The notes under the pieces are model-generated. The model was not told where the DNA came from. It worked only from the letters and a program-made list of their open reading frames with translations, and searched no databases. A stretch of 64,000 bases of DNA from Chitinophagaceae bacterium. Lineage in GTDB: Bacteria; Bacteroidota; Bacteroidia; Chitinophagales; Chitinophagaceae. Positions 14,273-27,862 of this stretch are shown here, in pieces; within the stretch, counting starts at the first letter, position 1, and each line of letters begins with the position of its first letter. Location: NCBI GenBank assembly GCA_947454715.1, contig CANGMZ010000001.1:1-64000 (forward strand), in the 5' to 3' direction. Position numbers and translations under genes: made by a program.

Positions 14273-16963
14273 TTATCTGATTAGTGTTACTTCACCTTTA
14301 TACATTTTCTGGTTACCATCTGGTTTGGCAACAATAATCTGGTAGTAATACACACCCATATCTTGTTTTACGCCATTGTAAGTGCCGTCCCATCCTTTTT
14401 TGCCATCATTGGTGTTGTTGTTTTCAAACACTTTTTCTCCCCAACGATTAAATACTTCAAACAGAACTATCTTTTGGTATCTCAGGTTCAGTATTCTGAA
14501 TACATCATTAAGCCCGTCGCCGTTTGGAGTGAAGGCAGTAGGTATAACTTCTGAAGATCCATTATTGACCAATATAGTTACACTTGCTGAGTCACGGCAA
14601 CCCCACTGGTTCATAGCATAAGCTACAAAGGTGGTAGAGTCGGTAAGTGTTGCTATCGGGTTGTTGATGTTTGAATTGTCAAGTGAACCGTTACTTGGTG
14701 TCCACCAGAAAATCAGCGGATAAGGAGTAAGGTTAATAGCATCGAGCTGCACCTGATCTCCGTAATTGACCATCGTATTGGCCGGAGTAACAGTAATATT
14801 AGCCGGTGGTCTTGGAGATAATGTTACGTGATCGGTGCTAACACAGCCTAGTGGCGAAGTTATAGTTATGTTATACAAGAAATCACCTACGATCGGAGAA
14901 CTGAATGTAGGGGTAAGGGTTGTAGCATTTGCCAAATATGTAGTTGGTGTCCAAACTAATGTATAGCTGGAACCCGGATTTGTAGCAACAACATCCAACA
15001 AAATAGAATCGCCGATGCAGAATGCGGTGTCGCCTGTGCGTATATCCACATTGGGTGCTTCAATTGTAAAGTTCACCGTGTGTATCATGTCAGGGCAGCC
15101 CGGATAGCTACCTGTAACAGTTAATACGGTTGAAGACGTAATTGTTGCTATAGGGTTAATGATATTCGGGTTGTTGACATAAACAGCCGGTGTCCAATGA
15201 TAGCTGAATTCAGTATCTCCGCTGGCGCGTATTGGAACAATGCCACTAAAGCACATGGTGCTATCCGGATTAAATAAGCTAAAATCATTCGGTAATACAT
15301 GCAACAGGAATGAATCTACTGCGAAGCAATGAGATGATGTTTCTGTGTCTGACACATAGTACATAACATCTCCGGCAACGACGGGTGTTACAATTGGGTC
15401 ATTGGTGGTTGCGCCTGCCAAATAGGTAGCAGGGGACCAAACAGGCTGGTAAGTACCCGGTGATGTAGCATTAACTGTAAGATGCAGCGGTAGTGCAACG
15501 CCAACACAAGTGTTTTTTATCGGTGCGCCTATATCCAGAGAAAACGGATGTACTACTGTAATAATAATGCTATCGGTGGTTGCAGGGCATCCTGTGCCCG
15601 GTAAAACAGCAGAAACCACATAGGTAGTTGTAGCGACAGGTGTAGCCGTTGGAGATACCAATGTGCTGCTATTCAGCGTGCCTGATGGCGCCCAGCTATA
15701 TGACAATGTAGGGTCTCCTGTAGTATTGATAAATACATGCTGACCTTGGCATATTGTGGTATCAGGCGTAATGATATGCACATAGAAACCATCATAAATA
15801 TTCAATATCGCACTATCTATGATGGTTGGTGTACCACCGCAAGAATATGGAGAGAGGATAAATAATTTTACTGTCTTTGGTCCACCTGCAGGAGTGATTA
15901 CTAAAGGGTGTATAAACAGGGTATCTGCTGTGCCCCCTGCCAATATTGTGACACTATCTGCAATGGTGGTGTAGTCTGTTCCGTTTACAGCAGTGCCTCC
16001 TATCACATAGTGTATTACTGTGTTAGTAGTTACAGGGGCAGATGTGTGGAATACGAACTGACCCGGTAAACAGCCTCTGATACAATATTGACCACCTGTA
16101 GCGGTGTCAGTTGAATTTATACCATGAGAGTTAATAGAGAAACCTGTTGATGAAAGACTGCCCGCTTCAATGAATACGCCTGAGTCTAAAACATGGTCAG
16201 TGCCATCTGCAATGCCAATTTTGAGGTGATAAGTATCGCAAGGAACTACATGTGCTACTGCTTGAAGCGTAGTCGTAAGCCCGTCATAAGTAATGGTGGC
16301 ACCCGCACTATTGTTTACATAATAAGTGCAAAATGGAGACCCCGGGCCAATTGCCGTGCAGGTAGATAAAGAACCACCACCTGTTGGGCCACAATTCACG
16401 CTATTGATACAAACCGGAACAGTTGTGCCTGGTACGAGCGCAATATTTGTAGGCGCGCCATAGCCTGGACCGGAAATAAAGAATCCGAATACATCGTTAA
16501 ATGATGAGCATGTATAACTGGTATACTCTTCAGAGCCAAAAACGTAGTTGAATTTTACTGTATCGCCCGCCGGACGAAAATCGAACTCCAGAATACAAGC
16601 GTCAAAAGTTGGTTGACCGGCAAGTGCGGTAAGCTGTGCATCGCCGGGAGCGGAGTTAGATGTAGATGCAAAACCCGATGCCGGACCACCTGCACCGATG
16701 TTCAAGCCCGCAGTTTGTGCTCTGCCCGATGTAAGTACAATGCCGGTATCAAAACTGAGTGACGATGGACCAACAAAAGTACCATTAGCCACTGCGGGGC
16801 AGGTTAGCGTAGGTGCAATAATGACAACACCCGAACCCACTAGCTTGTTGGCAAGCACTGCTGCCGTAACCGAGGGAGTAATAACTATCTGAGCTGATGA
16901 AGATGCGATATTAAAAACAAAAGCAGAGACTAGGATTGCGAAAAAATGTAAAATTCTCTTCAT
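14273..16963 (-). CDS. Secreted choice-of-anchor-L protein with T9SS type B sorting domain
   Basis: An 896-residue exported protein. After a signal peptide (about residues 1-25) comes a choice-of-anchor-L domain (about 30-260) with FRPAGDTVKFNYVFGSEEY and NDVFGFFISGPG. A Calx-beta-like segment follows (VIHYVIGGTAVNGTDYT), then several Ig/PKD-like modules rich in Thr, Ser and Pro. From about residue 803 there is the gliding-motility-associated C-terminal domain (VIPTAFTPNGDGLNDVFRI and FNRWGEKVF), the signal for type IX secretion type B cargo. It likely ends up on the cell surface as a structural or adhesive protein. It is the longer paralogue of the adjacent gene and has its own terminator at 14212-14251. 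Confidence 0.9.
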   Translation of the reverse strand: MKRILHFFAILVSAFVFNIASSSAQIVITPSVTAAVLANKLVGSGVVIIAPTLTCPAVANGTFVGPSSLSFDTGIVLTSGRAQTAGLNIGAGGPASGFASTSNSAPGDAQLTALAGQPTFDACILEFDFRPAGDTVKFNYVFGSEEYTSYTCSSFNDVFGFFISGPGYGAPTNIALVPGTTVPVCINSVNCGPTGGGSLSTCTAIGPGSPFCTYYVNNSAGATITYDGLTTTLQAVAHVVPCDTYHLKIGIADGTDHVLDSGVFIEAGSLSSTGFSINSHGINSTDTATGGQYCIRGCLPGQFVFHTSAPVTTNTVIHYVIGGTAVNGTDYTTIADSVTILAGGTADTLFIHPLVITPAGGPKTVKLFILSPYSCGGTPTIIDSAILNIYDGFYVHIITPDTTICQGQHVFINTTGDPTLSYSWAPSGTLNSSTLVSPTATPVATTTYVVSAVLPGTGCPATTDSIIITVVHPFSLDIGAPIKNTCVGVALPLHLTVNATSPGTYQPVWSPATYLAGATTNDPIVTPVVAGDVMYYVSDTETSSHCFAVDSFLLHVLPNDFSLFNPDSTMCFSGIVPIRASGDTEFSYHWTPAVYVNNPNIINPIATITSSTVLTVTGSYPGCPDMIHTVNFTIEAPNVDIRTGDTAFCIGDSILLDVVATNPGSSYTLVWTPTTYLANATTLTPTFSSPIVGDFLYNITITSPLGCVSTDHVTLSPRPPANITVTPANTMVNYGDQVQLDAINLTPYPLIFWWTPSNGSLDNSNINNPIATLTDSTTFVAYAMNQWGCRDSASVTILVNNGSSEVIPTAFTPNGDGLNDVFRILNLRYQKIVLFEVFNRWGEKVFENNNTNDGKKGWDGTYNGVKQDMGVYYYQIIVAKPDGNQKMYKGEVTLIR

Positions 16964-17181: not shown

Positions 17182-19377
17182 TTACTTTATAAGTGTGACG
17201 TCTCCTTTATATATTTTTTGTGTGCCGTCTGGTCGGGCTACAATGATCAGGTAGTTATAAACACCTAAGTCTTGCATTACACCATTAAATGTGCCATCCC
17301 ATCCTTTAGATGCATCATTGGTATTGTCATTTTGGTAAACCAGCTGTCCCCAACGGTTATATACTTCAAATGCAACCAACTTTTGATAACGCATATTCAA
17401 TATTCTGAACACATCATTAAGACCATCTCCGTTTGGTGTAAATGCAGTTGGAATAACTTCTGATGTGCCGTTGTCTACAGATATGGTTACTCGTGCTGAA
17501 TCTCTGCAACCCCATTCGTTCATGGCATACACTATATATGTAGTTGTATCAAGTGGGGTAGCAATAGGGTTGTTGATATTCGGGTTGTCGAGTGAGCCAT
17601 CGGCAGGTGTCCAGAAATAGAATAAAGGATAAGGAGTAGTGTTGATAGCGTCAAGTTGCACTTGCTGTCCCAGACCAATAGTTGTATTTCCCGGTGTAAT
17701 ATTGATGGTTGCAAGTGGCATAACATGGACTACACCCGTTGCAGTGCCGGCGCAGCCTATACTATTTGTTGCAGTTACTGTAATTGCATAATCGCCGATG
17801 GTATTCTGATAAAAAATAGGTTGCGTCAAAGTAGGGTCATTGAAATCGCCTGCGGGTCCCCACAGGTAAGTGGCAGATGGGTCTACAGGAGTAGTATTTG
17901 CATTTATAGGTGCATATTGCCCTACACAAAGCATGGTGTCTCTGATCATCACATCGAGATGAGTAATAGTTACTGTCACCTGATCAGAAACCGGAGGGCA
18001 GCCCAAAAGCGTATAAACTCCGGTAAGTGTGTATGTTGTTGTGACAGTAGGCGTAGCACTTGTAGTCAAAGATGTGCTGCCGGAGGTCAGTGTTGCAGTT
18101 GGTGTCCATTGGTAACTGAGCAGAGGATTACCTACTGCATTGATATTCAGACTTTGTCCCAAACAGATAGCGGTATCAGGGGTAGTTATTTGAACAGTTG
18201 GTGAATCTACTATCAATACTGTTGCACTATCTAATATATCTACAGTTGTAGAGCAACTATGTGTTGCTAAAATATAAAGAGTGACAGTTTTTGTGCCGCC
18301 TGCAGGTACAGTAAGCCCTTGTATGGCTACTGTTGCGGAGGTACTACCCGGAGGTATAATCACACTATCGGGTATGTGGGTGTAGTCATAGCCATTTACT
18401 GCAGTTCCGCCTATTACATAGTGTATTATTTGAGGTGTAGTAGTTGGTGCAGATAGATTAAATGTAAAATCGCCGGGGTAACAGCCTCTTATGCAGAATG
18501 GACCACCAAAAGATGTATCAGCAGGGTTACTGCTCACTGGAGCAATACTAGTATTAACAGAGCTAAGTGTATGCGCCTCAAGGAATACACCTGAATCCCA
18601 AATATCATCAGTAGCATCTGCAATACCTATTTTAAGGTGATACGTGTCGCAGGGTGTTACTGCTGCAATAGCAGTAAGCGTAGAGGTTAAACCATCGTAA
18701 GTGATAGTAGTGCCTGTAAGATTATTGACGTAGTAAGAACAAAACGGAGAGCCGGGGCCTATAGCTGTGCAGGTAGATAGTGTTCCTGTTCCTGTTCCCG
18801 GTCCGCAGTTCACGCTATTGATACAAACAGGGATTGTAGTGCCGGGAACAAGTGCAATATTAGTAGGACTAGTAAAGCCCGGACCTGAAATGATAAAACC
18901 GAATACATCATTAAATCCGGTGCAGGTGAAGCCATTATACTCTTCAGAACCGAATACATAATTAAACTTAATCGTGTCTCCTGCCGGTCTGAAATCAAAC
19001 TCCAATACACAGGCATCATAAGTAGTAGCTCCTGACAGCAGGTCTAATGAAGGGTCTCCGGGGGTGCCATTTCCGGTGCTGGCAAAAGAGCTTGCAGGGC
19101 CGCCCGCACCTATCGCAGTCCCTGCGGTAGCTGCCTGACCCGATGTAAGTACTATCCCACTATTAAAACCTAAGGTGGACACACCGGAAAATATACCTTG
19201 AGCGTTGTCAGGGCAGGTAAGAACAGGGTTCAATACCAATACGCCCGCACCGGTTAGTTGGGAGGCCAGCATACTTGCTGTTGCTCCTGGTGCAATTGTT
19301 AGCTGTGCCGAAGATCGACCAGCGAATGCGAATACCATAACGAATAGGGACGCTATAAAGGGTAAATATCGCTTCAT
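17182..19377 (-). CDS. Secreted choice-of-anchor-L protein with T9SS type B sorting domain (paralogue)
   Basis: A 731-residue protein using the ATG at 19377, which puts the signal peptide (MKRYLPFIASLFVMVFAFAG) at the N-terminus; the frame is open 66 nt further upstream but that extension looks untranslated. Domain order matches the neighbour: anchor-L (FRPAGDTIKFNYVFGSEEYNGF), Calx-beta-like segment, fewer PKD/Ig-like modules, and a type B C-terminal domain (VIPTAFTPNGDGLNDVFRI, VYNRWGQLVY). The two genes are tandem, same strand and each followed by a terminator, so they look like a duplication followed by loss or gain of internal modules. The function is inferred to be at the cell surface; no ligand can be named. 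Confidence 0.9.
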   Translation of the reverse strand: MKRYLPFIASLFVMVFAFAGRSSAQLTIAPGATASMLASQLTGAGVLVLNPVLTCPDNAQGIFSGVSTLGFNSGIVLTSGQAATAGTAIGAGGPASSFASTGNGTPGDPSLDLLSGATTYDACVLEFDFRPAGDTIKFNYVFGSEEYNGFTCTGFNDVFGFIISGPGFTSPTNIALVPGTTIPVCINSVNCGPGTGTGTLSTCTAIGPGSPFCSYYVNNLTGTTITYDGLTSTLTAIAAVTPCDTYHLKIGIADATDDIWDSGVFLEAHTLSSVNTSIAPVSSNPADTSFGGPFCIRGCYPGDFTFNLSAPTTTPQIIHYVIGGTAVNGYDYTHIPDSVIIPPGSTSATVAIQGLTVPAGGTKTVTLYILATHSCSTTVDILDSATVLIVDSPTVQITTPDTAICLGQSLNINAVGNPLLSYQWTPTATLTSGSTSLTTSATPTVTTTYTLTGVYTLLGCPPVSDQVTVTITHLDVMIRDTMLCVGQYAPINANTTPVDPSATYLWGPAGDFNDPTLTQPIFYQNTIGDYAITVTATNSIGCAGTATGVVHVMPLATINITPGNTTIGLGQQVQLDAINTTPYPLFYFWTPADGSLDNPNINNPIATPLDTTTYIVYAMNEWGCRDSARVTISVDNGTSEVIPTAFTPNGDGLNDVFRILNMRYQKLVAFEVYNRWGQLVYQNDNTNDASKGWDGTFNGVMQDLGVYNYLIIVARPDGTQKIYKGDVTLIK

Positions 19378-19642
19378 ATAAATAATAAGAGTAAAATTAT
19401 TAATTATTTGTAATAGTCTATAAAACAGCAGGCTATTAATCAACGTTAAAGATATAAATAAAAATAGATTGTTTGTATTTTTTGATGTTTTTTATTGCAT
19501 GTGCATTTTTTTGAATGCTTTTCCTGCTATTGAAGACATCTGGTAGGTTGATAATAGTTGGGTATGGTCATGCTTTAACAAAATATTATTGAAGTCTGGT
19601 GTGAAATAGCCCGTTTTTTGTATCTCTGTAAAAAACACTTTC

Positions 19643-21307
19643 ATGAAGCACACAAAGATCTATTCGGGCATCGCTGTCCTGCTCTGCATGCAGTTAAGCG
19701 CATCTGCGCAAACAACACAAAAGCTGAATCTGGACAAAGCAACAGTGTTCATTAGAGGAGCTGAATTGACCAGCACAGCAAAAATTGCCTTATCTAAGGG
19801 TGAGAATGAATTTGTGTTTACCAATGTTGCAGGCGATGTCAACAACCAAAGCATTGTGGTGAGTGCATCTAATGGTGCTGTAGTAGAGTCGGTGACTTTT
19901 CAGAACAACTATACCAATACTGATAATTTGTCCCCTCGTGTAAAAGAGCTGAAGGATAGCATCGATTTAATTAATGCACGCAGACAACCTATTGATAATA
20001 AAATTGCAACGCTTAATGAACAGATACTCATTTTGCAGAATAATCGCAAAATCGGGGGAAATAACAATGGTATGTCTGTGTTAGAGTTGCAGAAAATGCT
20101 CGATTTGGTGAGCAGTAAAATGGAAGGCTACCTGAATCAGAAAAACAAAGAGGAAGACAACCTGAAGAAGATTGATGAACGAATAGCCAATCTCAATAAG
20201 CAATTGGAAGAAGAACAAAAGAAAGAATATCAGCCGGGTGGGCAATTGTTAGTAAAGTTCTTTTCTAAGGAAAGTACACAAAGTAATATTGCTATTACCT
20301 ACATAGTTACAAATGCAGGTTGGTCGCCAAGCTATGATGTTTGGGCAGATGATGTACACAGCCCTATTAAGTTTTATTACAAAGCCAATATCTTCCAAAA
20401 CAGTGGTGTAAAATGGAATAATGTTCACCTGACCATATCTACAGGCAACCCTCAGGAGGGTATGCAGGCACCGGTTTTGAATCCTTGGTATCTGTCTTTT
20501 TATACACCTCGCACACTATATCAAACTCCTAAATTATATAGGGGTAGGGGAGAAGAAGTTGCCAGTGATAAGAATTCATCTGCTTGGGGCTTAAGAAATG
20601 GTAACCTTTATACAGTTGATGGTGTGCAGGTGCAAGGTAATTCGGGCATTGACATGGCACAAGGCGCAGTTGAGACAATGCAGGTTGTTGCTACAAACAA
20701 CGAAGGTGTAAATACTTCATTTGATATTGAGTTGCCATATACCATACCTAGCGATGGGCAACAGCACTTGGTAGCGATAAAGAAATATGAGACACCGGCT
20801 ATTTTTGAATATTATGCTGCGCCAAAGGTCGATAATGATGCATTTTTGTTAGCTAAGATCACCAACTGGCAAGATTTAAATTTACTGCCGGGTCAGACTA
20901 ATATTTTCTATGAAGGTACTTACGTTGGTCAGGGGTATATAGATACCCGAAATACACAAGATACCATGAGCATATCATTGGGTCGTGACAAGAAAATAGT
21001 GATTAAAAGGGAGCGTGATAAGCAATTGCGTAGTGTAAAAACTATTGGTACCAATGTGCGGGAATCATTTGCTTATAACATCTCAGTGCGCAATACCCGC
21101 AAAGAAAGCATCACACTTGTGCTTGCAGATCAGCAGCCGGTAAGTAACGATAAAGATATTGTTATTGAAGATCGTGAAACCAATGATGCAAGTTTTGATG
21201 AAGCTACAGGAATGATGAAATGGCCGTTAACACTAAAAGGCAATGAGACAAAGACACTAAAATTTGGTTATACCCTCAAATATCCTAAGGGCAAAACGAT
21301 ACGATAA
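19643..21307 (+). CDS. MuiA-like DUF4139 secreted protein with plug-like insert
   Basis: A 554-residue exported protein (signal peptide ending near SASAQTT). An N-terminal DUF4140 part (ATVFIRGAELTSTAKIAL) is followed by a coiled-coil arm (about residues 95-195) and a DUF4139 domain (GGQLLVKFFSKE, TNAGWSPSYDVWADD, FYEGTYVG, RDKKIVIKRERDK, FGYTLKYPKGKTI). Family members are labelled mucoidy inhibitor A but the biochemical role is unknown. Between the two DUF4139 halves, residues 320-350 read YTVDGVQVQG and GAVETMQVV, resembling the TonB-dependent receptor plug motif. The next gene is a tandem paralogue. Transcribed divergently from the anchor-L gene. Confidence 0.85.
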   Translation: MKHTKIYSGIAVLLCMQLSASAQTTQKLNLDKATVFIRGAELTSTAKIALSKGENEFVFTNVAGDVNNQSIVVSASNGAVVESVTFQNNYTNTDNLSPRVKELKDSIDLINARRQPIDNKIATLNEQILILQNNRKIGGNNNGMSVLELQKMLDLVSSKMEGYLNQKNKEEDNLKKIDERIANLNKQLEEEQKKEYQPGGQLLVKFFSKESTQSNIAITYIVTNAGWSPSYDVWADDVHSPIKFYYKANIFQNSGVKWNNVHLTISTGNPQEGMQAPVLNPWYLSFYTPRTLYQTPKLYRGRGEEVASDKNSSAWGLRNGNLYTVDGVQVQGNSGIDMAQGAVETMQVVATNNEGVNTSFDIELPYTIPSDGQQHLVAIKKYETPAIFEYYAAPKVDNDAFLLAKITNWQDLNLLPGQTNIFYEGTYVGQGYIDTRNTQDTMSISLGRDKKIVIKRERDKQLRSVKTIGTNVRESFAYNISVRNTRKESITLVLADQQPVSNDKDIVIEDRETNDASFDEATGMMKWPLTLKGNETKTLKFGYTLKYPKGKTIR

Positions 21308-21331
21308 GTTTAATACTTTATATACTTTTAG

Positions 21332-21362
21332 AGAGGTGGATATCATTTATTCACCTCTTTTT
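21332..21362 (+). terminator. Terminator between the tandem MuiA-like genes
   Basis: A 7-bp stem (21332-21338 with 21352-21358), 13-nt loop, then a T run. It suggests that the two paralogues are separate transcription units. Confidence 0.65.
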
Positions 21363-21554
21363 AGTTTGTGTAAGAGGGTTTGTATTGTTTTTTGGTATGC
21401 TAATTAATTGCAATAAAAGTGTTGTTCTGTGCCAAAAGAAGTAACTTTATTTGGTTTAAAAACTGCTGATTTGCTTGGTGTGTAGCATATAAATGGCATT
21501 TATAAATGTCATTCCAATTGTTTCAATTGATTAAACTGTTTAATGATATATATT

Positions 21555-23165
21555 ATGAGTCGAAGTAAAATTTATTCGGGCATTGCAGTTATGCTGTGCA
21601 TACAGTTAAGCGTATTGGCACAAACAACACAAAAACTGAGTCTGGACAAGGCGACAGTGTTCATCAGGGGTGCTGAATTGACCAGCACAGCAAAAATTAC
21701 CTTGGCTAAAGGCGAGAATGAATTTGTGTTTACCAATGTAGCTGGTGATATCAACAACCAAAGCATTGCAGTGAGTGCATCAAATGGTGCAGTAGTTGAG
21801 TCGGTAACTTTTCAGAATAATTATACAAATACCGACAATGAATCTCCCAAGATCAAAGAACTGAAAGATAGTATTGCGCAAGTAGAAGTTCGAAAACAGC
21901 CGCTTAATAATAAAGTAGCCGCTATTAATGAATTGATAGCTATTCTGCAGAACAACAGAAAAGTGGGTGGAAACAATACAGGCTTGTCAGTTGCTGAGAT
22001 GCAGAAGATGCTGGATATGGTCGGCTCAAAGCTAGAAAGCTATCTCATGCAAAAAGATAAAGCGGAAAGTGAAATAAAGAAATTGTCGCAGAGAATAGTC
22101 GCATTGACCAAGCAATTGAATGAGGAACAGAAGAGGGGATATCAACCGGGCGGACAATTATTAGTAAGGTTTTATTCAAAAGAGGCAACAACAAGTAATA
22201 TAACAATTTCGTATGTGGTACAAAATGCCGGTTGGGTGCCGGTTTATGATGTTTGGGTAGGTAATACCTGTGTACCTGCTACTTTTTACTATAAGGCCAA
22301 CATATACCAGAATTGCGGGGTGAAGTGGAATAATGTACATCTTACACTGTCTACAGATGATGCACAGCAAGGGTTGCAGGCTCCAATTCTGACACCTCAG
22401 TATTTATCATTTTACAGGCAACAGCCACAGGTTACAATGTATGGTAATCAGACTGGCGAAGATGTTTTTACAACAGAAACATATACTAGTGGAACCTACG
22501 CAGTGGCACAGCCTAAAGCAAAGCAATCAACGGTTAATGAATATGTAAAAACATATACATCGGGTGTAAGTACCAGATTCGATATTGAGTTGCCTTACAC
22601 TATACCTAGCGATGGGCAGCAGCATCTGGTTGCCGTAAAAATTTACGAAATGGCGGCTACATATCAATACTATTCCGCACCGAAGGCCGATGATGATGCA
22701 TTTTTGTTAGCTAGAATTACCGACTGGGAGGATATGAATTTATTGCCGGGGAAAACAAGTATTTTCTATGAGGGGACTTATGTAGGTCATGGAGCAATTG
22801 ACCCGAAAAACATTACCGACACATTGAATGTATCCCTTGGGAGGGATAAGAAAATTGTTGTAAAAAGGGAGCGTGACAAATCGTATCGTAGTGTAAAAAT
22901 GATAGGTTCCAATGTGCGGGAAGAGTATGCCTACAATATTACTGTTCGGAATACACGCAAAGAAACTATAACCATATTGGTAAACGACCAGTTGCCAATC
23001 AGCAATGATAAGGAGATCGTAATCGAAGATATTCAGATTGATGGTGCCTCATATAATGAGACAACAGGTATTCTGGTATGGCCGCTAACGCTAAAGGGCA
23101 ATGAGTCAAAGACGATAAAATTTGGTTATACCCTCAAATATCCTAAAGGGAAAACTATACAATAA
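21555..23165 (+). CDS. MuiA-like DUF4139 secreted protein (tandem paralogue)
   Basis: A 536-residue paralogue of the preceding gene. The ATG at 21555 (MSRSKIYSGIAVMLC) aligns with the neighbour's start and gives a compact signal peptide; an ATG 12 nt earlier is also possible. The same architecture is seen: DUF4140-like N-terminus, coiled coil, DUF4139 halves. The N-terminal 80 residues and the C-terminal 150 are nearly interchangeable with the first copy, while the central insert is different (EDVFTTETYTSGTYAVAQ) and lacks the VDGV plug-like motif. Recent duplication with divergence of the insert is the simplest reading. A strong terminator follows. Confidence 0.85.
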   Translation: MSRSKIYSGIAVMLCIQLSVLAQTTQKLSLDKATVFIRGAELTSTAKITLAKGENEFVFTNVAGDINNQSIAVSASNGAVVESVTFQNNYTNTDNESPKIKELKDSIAQVEVRKQPLNNKVAAINELIAILQNNRKVGGNNTGLSVAEMQKMLDMVGSKLESYLMQKDKAESEIKKLSQRIVALTKQLNEEQKRGYQPGGQLLVRFYSKEATTSNITISYVVQNAGWVPVYDVWVGNTCVPATFYYKANIYQNCGVKWNNVHLTLSTDDAQQGLQAPILTPQYLSFYRQQPQVTMYGNQTGEDVFTTETYTSGTYAVAQPKAKQSTVNEYVKTYTSGVSTRFDIELPYTIPSDGQQHLVAVKIYEMAATYQYYSAPKADDDAFLLARITDWEDMNLLPGKTSIFYEGTYVGHGAIDPKNITDTLNVSLGRDKKIVVKRERDKSYRSVKMIGSNVREEYAYNITVRNTRKETITILVNDQLPISNDKEIVIEDIQIDGASYNETTGILVWPLTLKGNESKTIKFGYTLKYPKGKTIQ

Positions 23166-26107: not shown

Positions 26108-26953
26108 ATGGCAAATTTTGGTCAAGGCAGGTTCGCTGGTATTCCTCCTATAGTTAAGAATATCATCATCATCAATGTGCTTATTGTTTTCATACAATTT
26201 GTATTGGGGCAGAAGGGTATTGATTTGGGAGATTACTTGGGGCTGCACTACTGGCAGTCACCTAAATTCAGATGGTGGCAATTCCTAACACATATATTTA
26301 TGCATGGTAGCCCAAACGATTTGGGAATGACTATTTCGCATATATTCTTTAATATGTACGGTCTCTTTATGTTTGGGAGCATATTGGAGAATCTTTGGGG
26401 GGCAAAGCGGTTTATTATATTTTATCTTATTTGCGGTCTAGGTGCCGGGTTCTGCTATCTGGGTGTTCTGGGTTTTGAGTTTTCTTCCTTCCATAGCTCT
26501 TTTCTGCACTTTCAGGAGCATCCCACATTTGTAGAATATGGTCAATTTGTAAGGCATAACCGATTAGCAGATAATCCTTTCTTTGCTCAGATTCTGTCTT
26601 TTTGGGGGCAGAACAATGATTGTACTGATTGTGCAGGTGAGGCAATAAAAGTAATTAATGAATATTACTCAAAAATAATTAATATCGGCATGGTGGGGGC
26701 ATCGGGTGCCATCTTTGGTATCTTATTTGCCTTTGGCTATTTATTCCCTAATACAGAGCTATATATTATGTTTATACCGGTGCCTATAAAGGCAAAGTGG
26801 GCAGTAGCCGGTTATGCTGCTATTGAGCTTTTTTCGGGTATCGGCAGGTTTCAGGGAGACAATACTGCGCACTTTGCCCACTTGGGGGGCATGCTGTTTG
26901 CCTTTATCATACTCCGTTTTTGGCATAAGAAAGACCGTAACAACTTTTATTAA
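26108..26953 (+). CDS. Rhomboid family intramembrane serine protease
   Basis: A 281-residue polytopic membrane protein of the rhomboid fold. The catalytic dyad is intact: Ser199 in GASGAIFG and His258 in HFAHLGGMLFAF; the L1 loop region (WWQFLTHIFMHG) and the HIFFNMYGLFMFG helix with its conserved Asn are also present. A long loop of about 60 residues (145-195) between two membrane segments is unusual for minimal rhomboids. Such enzymes cleave transmembrane substrates within the bilayer; the substrate is unknown. The next gene, 15 nt downstream, is a rhomboid relative without a dyad, and the pair probably form an operon. Confidence 0.92.
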   Translation: MANFGQGRFAGIPPIVKNIIIINVLIVFIQFVLGQKGIDLGDYLGLHYWQSPKFRWWQFLTHIFMHGSPNDLGMTISHIFFNMYGLFMFGSILENLWGAKRFIIFYLICGLGAGFCYLGVLGFEFSSFHSSFLHFQEHPTFVEYGQFVRHNRLADNPFFAQILSFWGQNNDCTDCAGEAIKVINEYYSKIINIGMVGASGAIFGILFAFGYLFPNTELYIMFIPVPIKAKWAVAGYAAIELFSGIGRFQGDNTAHFAHLGGMLFAFIILRFWHKKDRNNFY

Positions 26954-26968
26954 TAACTTTACAATCAA

Positions 26969-27862
26969 ATGGGAACAGGGCAGAGAAGATCAGCATTATC
27001 ATACATTCCGGGGTATAAGAACAACGGGGTGTTACAACTTATCATTGCGTCCGGAGTAGCTTACATGATGTTGGCTATCTGTTGGGCACTCGTGATGATT
27101 GTATTTGCAGGAGATCACAGCACTTTTGATGTATATTTTATTCCAAATATCGGGTTAACCAATGTTGCTGCATTTGCTGCCCATTGGTGGACTATCTTTA
27201 CTTATGGGCTTTTCCAGTTTCCTAACAGCTTTATGGAATTGCTGAGTAATATGCTTTGGTTGTACTGTTTTGGTTCTGTGGTGCAAATGTTGGTCGGTCA
27301 TAAGCAGGTTATACCTTTATATTTATATAGTTTGTTTGTTGGTGGTATTTTTTACTACATAGCACAGTTAATTCCTGGTAATCTGGGTCATGTGCCTGCT
27401 GCAGTATTAGGTGCCAGAGCAGGTTTGGTGGGTATGGCAGTGGCTGCTGTAACACTTACACCAAGCTATCGTTTTTACCTCACAGAAACATTTACCATAC
27501 CGTTGATACTGGTTGCAGGCGTTTTTGCAGCACTTATGCTACTCGGTAGCGGATTTTATATACCGGTGGTTATCATGATGGTAGCCGGAGGGCTCATGGG
27601 TTATGTATATGTGCAGCTGTTGCGTTCAGGTTACAAACCTGCAGACTGGGCATATAACTTGGGTAACAAAATAGAGGGTTTGGTTACTCCGTCTGATAAA
27701 AACATCAGCAAAAAGAAAGGACGTGTGATTAGCATGTACCAACCAAAACAAGGAATATCTCAGAGTCGTATTGATGAAATACTCGATAAGATTAACCAGA
27801 AAGGGTATAACTCACTGACAAAGGAAGAAAAAGAAATGCTGCTTAAAGCAGGTGGAGAGTGA
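26969..27862 (+). CDS. Catalytically dead rhomboid-like membrane protein
   Basis: A 297-residue rhomboid-fold protein with six predicted membrane helices and a cytoplasmic tail of about 75 residues. The Trp-rich L1 region (HWWTIFTYGLFQF) and the helix FMELLSNMLWLYCFG align with the upstream rhomboid. The catalytic motif reads GARAGLVGM, putting Arg150 at the Ser position, and the His helix reads VAGGLMGY, putting Val205 at the His position. The tail ends in SQSRIDEILDKINQKGYNSL followed by TKEEKEMLLKAGGE, a helical module found on Bacteroidota rhomboid relatives. It is probably a non-proteolytic partner or regulator. Confidence 0.85.
   Translation: MGTGQRRSALSYIPGYKNNGVLQLIIASGVAYMMLAICWALVMIVFAGDHSTFDVYFIPNIGLTNVAAFAAHWWTIFTYGLFQFPNSFMELLSNMLWLYCFGSVVQMLVGHKQVIPLYLYSLFVGGIFYYIAQLIPGNLGHVPAAVLGARAGLVGMAVAAVTLTPSYRFYLTETFTIPLILVAGVFAALMLLGSGFYIPVVIMMVAGGLMGYVYVQLLRSGYKPADWAYNLGNKIEGLVTPSDKNISKKKGRVISMYQPKQGISQSRIDEILDKINQKGYNSLTKEEKEMLLKAGGE

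Follow-up and report, generated by a model that had tools for sequence, protein, structure and literature searches.

The window analyzed here is a stretch of 64,000 nucleotides from a Chitinophagaceae bacterium (assembly GCA_947454715.1, contig CANGMZ010000001.1, positions 1 to 64,000 of the forward strand) that contains two adjacent genes for proteins of the MuiA family. Each protein has a variable loop within its DUF4139 part, and these loops carry short pieces of other envelope proteins: a part of a TonB-dependent receptor (TBDR) plug together with a GldJ-like piece in copy 1, and a GldJ-like piece in copy 2. Among relatives the same loop repeatedly bears TonB-box and plug segments, up to complete plugs, and in some cases pieces of GldJ, GldN or a PorE-like protein. 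We tentatively propose, at not quite an even chance, that the loop is an exchangeable docking or mimicry segment in the periplasm. The genes and the parts of their products are located as follows.

19643..21307, + strand: copy 1, DUF4140-DUF4139 protein (MuiA family) of 554 amino acids (aa), predicted to be exported (TIGR02231 295 bits, PF13598 1.6e-54, PF13600 7.8e-17; core pLDDT of approximately 85-92 in the AlphaFold2 model).
19643..19711, + strand: MKHTKIYSGIAVLLCMQLSASAQ, by its sequence a putative Sec signal peptide at the start of copy 1 (residues 4-18 form an N-terminal helix in the model).
20459..20707, + strand: variable loop of copy 1, residues 273-355, predicted to be disordered (pLDDT <50 throughout; fast-evolving in relatives).
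20528..20599, + strand: residues 296-319 of copy 1, PKLYRGRGEEVASDKNSSAWGLRN, a GldJ-like piece (GldJ profile 2.2e-5 over residues 296-332).
20600..20689, + strand: residues 320-349 of copy 1, GNLYTVDGVQVQGNSGIDMAQGAVETMQVV, a piece that resembles a TBDR plug (TBDR profile 6.9e-11; 21 of 30 residues shared with the plug of a TBDR of the same genome).
21543..23165, + strand: copy 2, DUF4140-DUF4139 protein (MuiA family) of 540 aa (TIGR02231 283 bits; 64% identity with copy 1).
22407..22571, + strand: variable loop of copy 2, approximately residues 289-343, placed by alignment with copy 1.
22446..22484, + strand: residues 302-314 of copy 2, NQTGEDVFTTETY, a GldJ-like piece (13 residues identical to the GldJ of this genome; GldJ profile 1.7e-6).

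DUF4140 (PF13600) and DUF4139 (PF13598) were both matched in each copy, and the TIGR02231 scores compare with a cut-off of 112.6 bits. The MuiA family takes its name from the inhibition of mucoidy. The two reading frames lie 235 bases apart on the same strand and both products start with a putative Sec signal peptide. In a BLASTP alignment of 555 columns the two copies show 64% identity and 79% positives; approximately residues 288-355 of copy 1 are gapped and cannot be aligned. The cores without the loop are 71% identical. An earlier note on this DNA had described the proteins as nearly the same at both ends with a differing central insert; the difference does lie mainly in the central loop, but "nearly the same" is somewhat strong for cores of this identity. 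In a tree of the MuiA cores (loop excluded, quick IQ-TREE run, many weak branches), copy 1 is closest to proteins of Flavipsychrobacter (Chitinophagaceae), and the 12-row clade that contains it also includes copy 2.

The earlier note had given the sequence of copy 1 residues 323-349 correctly as YTVDGVQVQGNSGIDMAQGAVETMQVV, and their resemblance to a receptor plug proved to be true homology, with 21 of the 30 residues of the plug-like piece shared with the plug GNLYVIDGVQVQGTQGIDMAQGATEQLEVI of a TBDR in the same genome. A six-frame search of this genome with the whole copy 1 protein as query identified both copies, a TBDR frame of 1261 aa (E 5.8e-9, 55% over 56 residues) that contains CarboxypepD_reg, Plug and a weak barrel match, and a GldJ frame of 546 aa (E 0.013). 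The best NCBIfam match of the latter is TIGR03524 (GldJ), under the cut-off, and the neighbors of the gene, as read from the sequence, are putative homologues of porU and porV and a start resembling that of murF. The stretch RGRGEEVASDKNSSAWGLRN of copy 1 aligns with RRRGEEVFTDRNVVGWGPRN of this GldJ, and the best of 5100 shuffles in the control for the copy 1 piece reached only 0.0025 with the GldJ profile. Copy 1 holds only a part of a plug, the remaining loop matching GldJ. The insert that copy 2 had been suggested to have lost or replaced was replaced rather than simply lost, since copy 2 carries the GldJ piece. No TonB box is recognizable in either copy.

Codons agree at 4 of 15, 8 of 12 and 13 of 21 identical residues of the window pieces, and a recent copying of DNA was therefore rejected (agreement at approximately 30-65% of identical residues). 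With the copy 1 loop, matches to the orthologous TBDR and/or GldJ were obtained in nearly all of 12 genomes (GldJ in most), and the copy 2 loop matches GldJ-length frames in most of the 12, weakly in several. This recurrence indicates that the pieces are conserved parts of the donors and that MuiA is the recipient. The donor TBDR gene (L034:2340-6122, - strand) is followed by a gene for a large secreted protein (open reading frame (ORF) 3-2309, - strand) and preceded by a dehydrogenase gene and an rRNA dimethyltransferase-like gene; genes of similar size flank the receptor in two further genomes (G021 and G174), so that the locus looks conserved.

The loops of 102 non-redundant relatives from the Chitinophagaceae, Flavobacteriaceae, Sphingobacteriaceae and metagenome-assembled genomes (MAGs, the source of many of the sequences) were surveyed for such pieces. 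A scan with the Pfam library identified Plug (PF07715) in 17 loops at E 0.1 and any other family in at most one loop, and all NCBIfam families matched by more than one loop were TonB receptor families (best SusC, 2.1e-41). A profile built from ten TBDR orthologues matched 41 of the 102 loops at a threshold of 0.01, compared with 1 of 5100 shuffled loops at the same threshold. These matches fall at positions ~127-250 of the ~1300-residue receptor, corresponding to the TonB box and plug, with one weaker match further on, and none of the 102 loops matched the receptor barrel with this profile. The plug segment was matched in none of 1151 unselected ORFs flanking MuiA genes. The TonB-box motif LxE(V/T)VV is present in 19 of 129 loops where 0.57 are expected (maximum of 4 in 1000 shuffles, approximately 30-fold enrichment), and YKKPLV-like stretches, located behind the TonB box in the donor receptor, are present in 17 loops (5.3 thousand aa) compared with 8 matches in 256 thousand aa of background. 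Alignments with phmmer extend over 60-80 residues in relatives' loops; the phmmer background included deliberately fetched donors, and the Pfam, NCBIfam and flanking-ORF scans are therefore the fair controls. Of 8 loops compared with 11 receptors, 6 matched the TBDR of their own genome best and the other two ranked it second, which is only suggestive because genome relatedness explains a part of it. Overall, 214 of 295 Bacteroidia genomes match a query of plug plus core, mostly via the core, and DUF4139/MuiA proteins thus seem to be present in the majority of the Bacteroidia sampled. One MuiA protein in a record titled Azovibrio restrictus (L104) shows 98% identity to that of an "uncultured Bacteroides" MAG (L105) and falls within the Chitinophagaceae clade; the betaproteobacterial MAG probably includes a contaminating contig.

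The plug segment of copy 1 has counterparts in relatives, which extend to complete or nearly complete SusC-type plugs within the loop of MuiA proteins from Flavobacteriaceae (L129, L135, L142 and L167) and Chitinophagaceae (L127, L131 and L168). The AlphaFold2 model of copy 1, built with 32 locus-derived sequences, consists of a confident beta-sandwich, a long coiled-coil hairpin and a second beta domain, and residues 323-349 sit inside the loop that is predicted to be disordered, so that no plug fold is expected in copy 1. The loop does not pack against its own core in this model. Among the 50 Foldseek matches listed for the model there was no receptor, and only weak matches to AP2 mu2 and oligosaccharyltransferase were obtained, none with E <0.001. 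In the AlphaFold2 model of the full-plug relative L129, on the other hand, residues ~350-410 fold in the order beta-helix-beta-helix-beta (pLDDT 73-81). The top Foldseek match of this model is SusC (8a9y), with a probability of 0.94 and an E of 1.1e-3 that narrowly fails the 0.001 line, and 5fq7, Cir and RagA rank lower. A plug-like fold is thus absent from the copy 1 model but formed in part in that of a relative. A weak likeness of the MuiA core models to oligosaccharyltransferase subunits (6s7o, 7oci and 8agb) and to AP2 mu2 was also seen, again with no E <0.001.

Pieces of three other envelope proteins were identified in the loops. The GldJ profile matched four loops at <1e-4 and three more at 0.01-0.02, the latter counted as tentative, and the matches cover four different GldJ sites. 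A targeted search revealed three loops that match one and the same site of GldN (best 3e-8; donor identified by PF19841 and TIGR03523). The C-terminal tail of an OmpA-family protein is present in one loop (71% over 35 residues). This protein has TPR, PD40, CarboxypepD_reg and OmpA domains, and its best models, CHU_0125 and PorE, score under their cut-offs. PorE is a fusion of CpoB, TolB, carboxypeptidase and Pal elements and has been suggested to be moved by a TolA/TonB-like transducer (PMC12204202). A search with 16 loops against three whole genomes identified MuiA, TBDR, GldJ and the PorE-like protein and nothing else, and a second set of 16 loops identified no donor in seven genomes, the donor classes comparable to each loop being limited to the sequences covered in the searches.

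On the core tree, the distribution of pieces requires at least 22 changes for TBDR, 6 for GldJ and 3 for GldN pieces. The three GldN pieces, all from the same site, belong to separate clades, and GldJ sites recur in two clades each, with some of the matches weak. Cores that differ by a nonsynonymous distance (dN) of 0.04-0.08 may bear unrelated loops (e.g., L092/L095, L087/L090 and L100/L122). The ratio of nonsynonymous to synonymous change (w) is mostly 0.2-0.6 in short loops (0.02-0.04 in a few pairs) compared with 0.03-0.10 in the core. Two pairs with long half-plug loops show w of 0.06 and 0.11, indicating purifying selection, and the complete-plug pair L135/L142 shows w of 0.53.

Under the docking or mimicry explanation, tandem periplasmic MuiA proteins would combine a conserved core of beta-sandwich and coiled coil with one long, disordered and exchangeable DUF4139 loop. 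As this loop repeatedly bears a TonB box and plug pieces in the Bacteroidota, joined in this lineage by pieces of GldJ, GldN and a PorE-like OmpA protein, it may display a replica of the surface through which these machines make contacts on their periplasmic side. The MuiA core could then dock on, or compete for, the same periplasmic partners, most simply TonB itself where the loop has a TonB box, and a replacement of the loop would change the partner. It is plausible that loop replacement alters partner binding, as the earlier note had suggested. The homologous pieces, their recurrence and their confinement to TonB box and plug are results of the analysis, as are the predicted disorder in copy 1 and the folded plug part in a full-plug relative, whereas binding, competition and any physiological role are inferred. 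A function is favored by the limitation of the pieces to particular donor sites, by the GldN site that recurs and by the low w of two long half-plug pairs. Several observations weigh against this explanation: the different pieces share no motif, so that one common partner is not obvious; no TonB box is recognizable in copy 1; several loops match no donor; the matching of loops to receptors of their own genome is statistically not firm within a genus; and the fast evolution and frequent replacement of short loops between close relatives are as weak constraint predicts. This rapid turnover keeps a neutral view open, in which a permissive, disordered loop picks up in-frame fragments of abundant and conserved envelope genes that then erode without having a function. 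We regard such neutral capture, the chief competing explanation, as rather unlikely, although it carries real weight: it accounts for the disorder of the loop, for its fast evolution and frequent replacement between near relatives and for the many degenerate loops without a donor, but not for TBDR pieces drawn from only ~120 of ~1300 residues, for the return of one GldN site in three clades and of individual GldJ sites in two (some matches weak), for the lack of any other donor type in the searches made, for amino acids that are kept while codons are near saturation, or for the low w in two long plug-bearing pairs.

Two further explanations are each improbable. A single insertion of a plug into the loop of an early Bacteroidota MuiA, of which the lineages keep different remnants, agrees with complete plugs in Flavobacterium and Chitinophagaceae and TonB-box-only or half-plug remnants elsewhere; however, the GldJ, GldN and PorE-like pieces cannot derive from a plug, some lineages have SusC-type plugs and others another receptor type, and loops tend to match the receptor of their own genome best. 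Alternatively, the MuiA core might serve as a chaperone or assembly factor that binds envelope segments in trans, with the loop as a built-in client or pseudosubstrate filling the groove. All donors being exported envelope proteins, the very different client-like pieces at one loop position and the weak, non-significant likeness of the core fold to the peptide-binding AP2 mu2 domain (E ~0.01) point in this direction, but neither a groove nor a partner is known and the loop of the copy 1 model lacks intramolecular packing. A chance or low-complexity resemblance has next to no probability: the window pieces are short (~13-30 residues), but the shuffle and background controls, the alignments over 60-80 residues and the complete plugs in relatives contradict it, and for the family-wide pattern it is already refuted.

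The docking explanation may also be taken in a narrower form, which is distinctly unlikely, where the loop would be an evolvable element dedicated to docking on transducers that are driven by the proton-motive force and work on the outer membrane: TonB for the TonB-box and plug pieces, and the motor of the type IX secretion system (T9SS) and gliding for the GldJ, GldN and PorE-like pieces. If true, these motors would have a new class of clients or competitors in the periplasmic MuiA proteins, which loop exchange would tune in each lineage. No role of DUF4139/MuiA proteins in Bacteroidia was found in the open-access literature, and a loop bearing contact segments of TonB receptors and of the T9SS and gliding machinery hints that MuiA may work with or against energized outer-membrane machines.

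Receptor plug parts also travel as modules outside MuiA loops. A YfbK-like von Willebrand factor A (vWA) protein of 687 aa (L206, G139:C11) contains CarboxypepD_reg, a TonB box and a half-plug with 65 of 84 residues identical to a TBDR of its own genome, and the vWA relatives in G172 and G099 are without the half-plug. Small ORFs of ~117-260 aa in the window genus hold a half-plug and end just past an IDG motif. In the window genome itself this is a stand-alone protein of 117 aa (L205:1345-1698, G000:C96) with an apparent signal peptide and no Pfam match that ends just after IIDGIRI; similar small ORFs occur in G169 (L208, frame of 168 aa) and G091 (L166, frame of 261 aa with an extra N-terminal part). 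Since plug parts occur outside receptors in MuiA loops, a vWA protein and small secreted half-plug proteins, a Plug match in an annotation does not mean a receptor.

Two gene pairs were also noted near the MuiA genes. Positions 14273-16963 and 17182-19443 (- strand), divergently oriented to the MuiA pair, encode adjacent paralogous secreted proteins with C-terminal ends that read like gliding-motility-associated domains (CHU_C, T9SS type B). Positions 26108-26953 and 26969-27862 (+ strand) encode adjacent multi-helix membrane proteins that read like the rhomboid family, the GASG motif being present in the first only.

Compared with known systems, the window copies are, judged by sequence, members of the MuiA/DUF4139 family (TIGR02231, PF13598 and PF13600), with which they share the whole core and both domains at scores far over the cut-offs. 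The definition of this family does not include a central loop bearing receptor, GldJ, GldN or PorE-like pieces, and no description of such pieces in MuiA loops was found in the open-access literature. An identity with the SprA "Plug" (Fjoh_1759) was considered and dropped; a structure of SprA with its Plug exists, but no DUF4139-like PDB chain was found by sequence, and a review only names Fjoh_1759. With the TBDR plug (PF07715) of the SusC/RagA type (TIGR04056), the loops have the TonB box and plug sequence in common, and some relatives contain a complete plug. That the window copies are themselves TBDRs is refuted: MuiA proteins are without the barrel, neither copy matches the 22-strand barrel PF00593, the copy 1 model is a beta-sandwich with a coiled coil, and the short plug piece lies in a disordered loop and gives no Pfam match to PF07715 in either copy 1 or its loop. 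With GldJ (TIGR03524), a lipoprotein of gliding and the T9SS, both copies share short identical or similar stretches, but only as fragments; MuiA proteins are without the FGE-sulfatase-like domain, and neither PF03781 nor TIGR03524 matched the window copies, the short pieces being detected by our own GldJ profile. The YfbK-like vWA protein is likewise a non-receptor envelope protein of the Bacteroidota with a TonB box and the first half of a plug, but carries them in a linker between two domains and not, as MuiA does, inside DUF4139.

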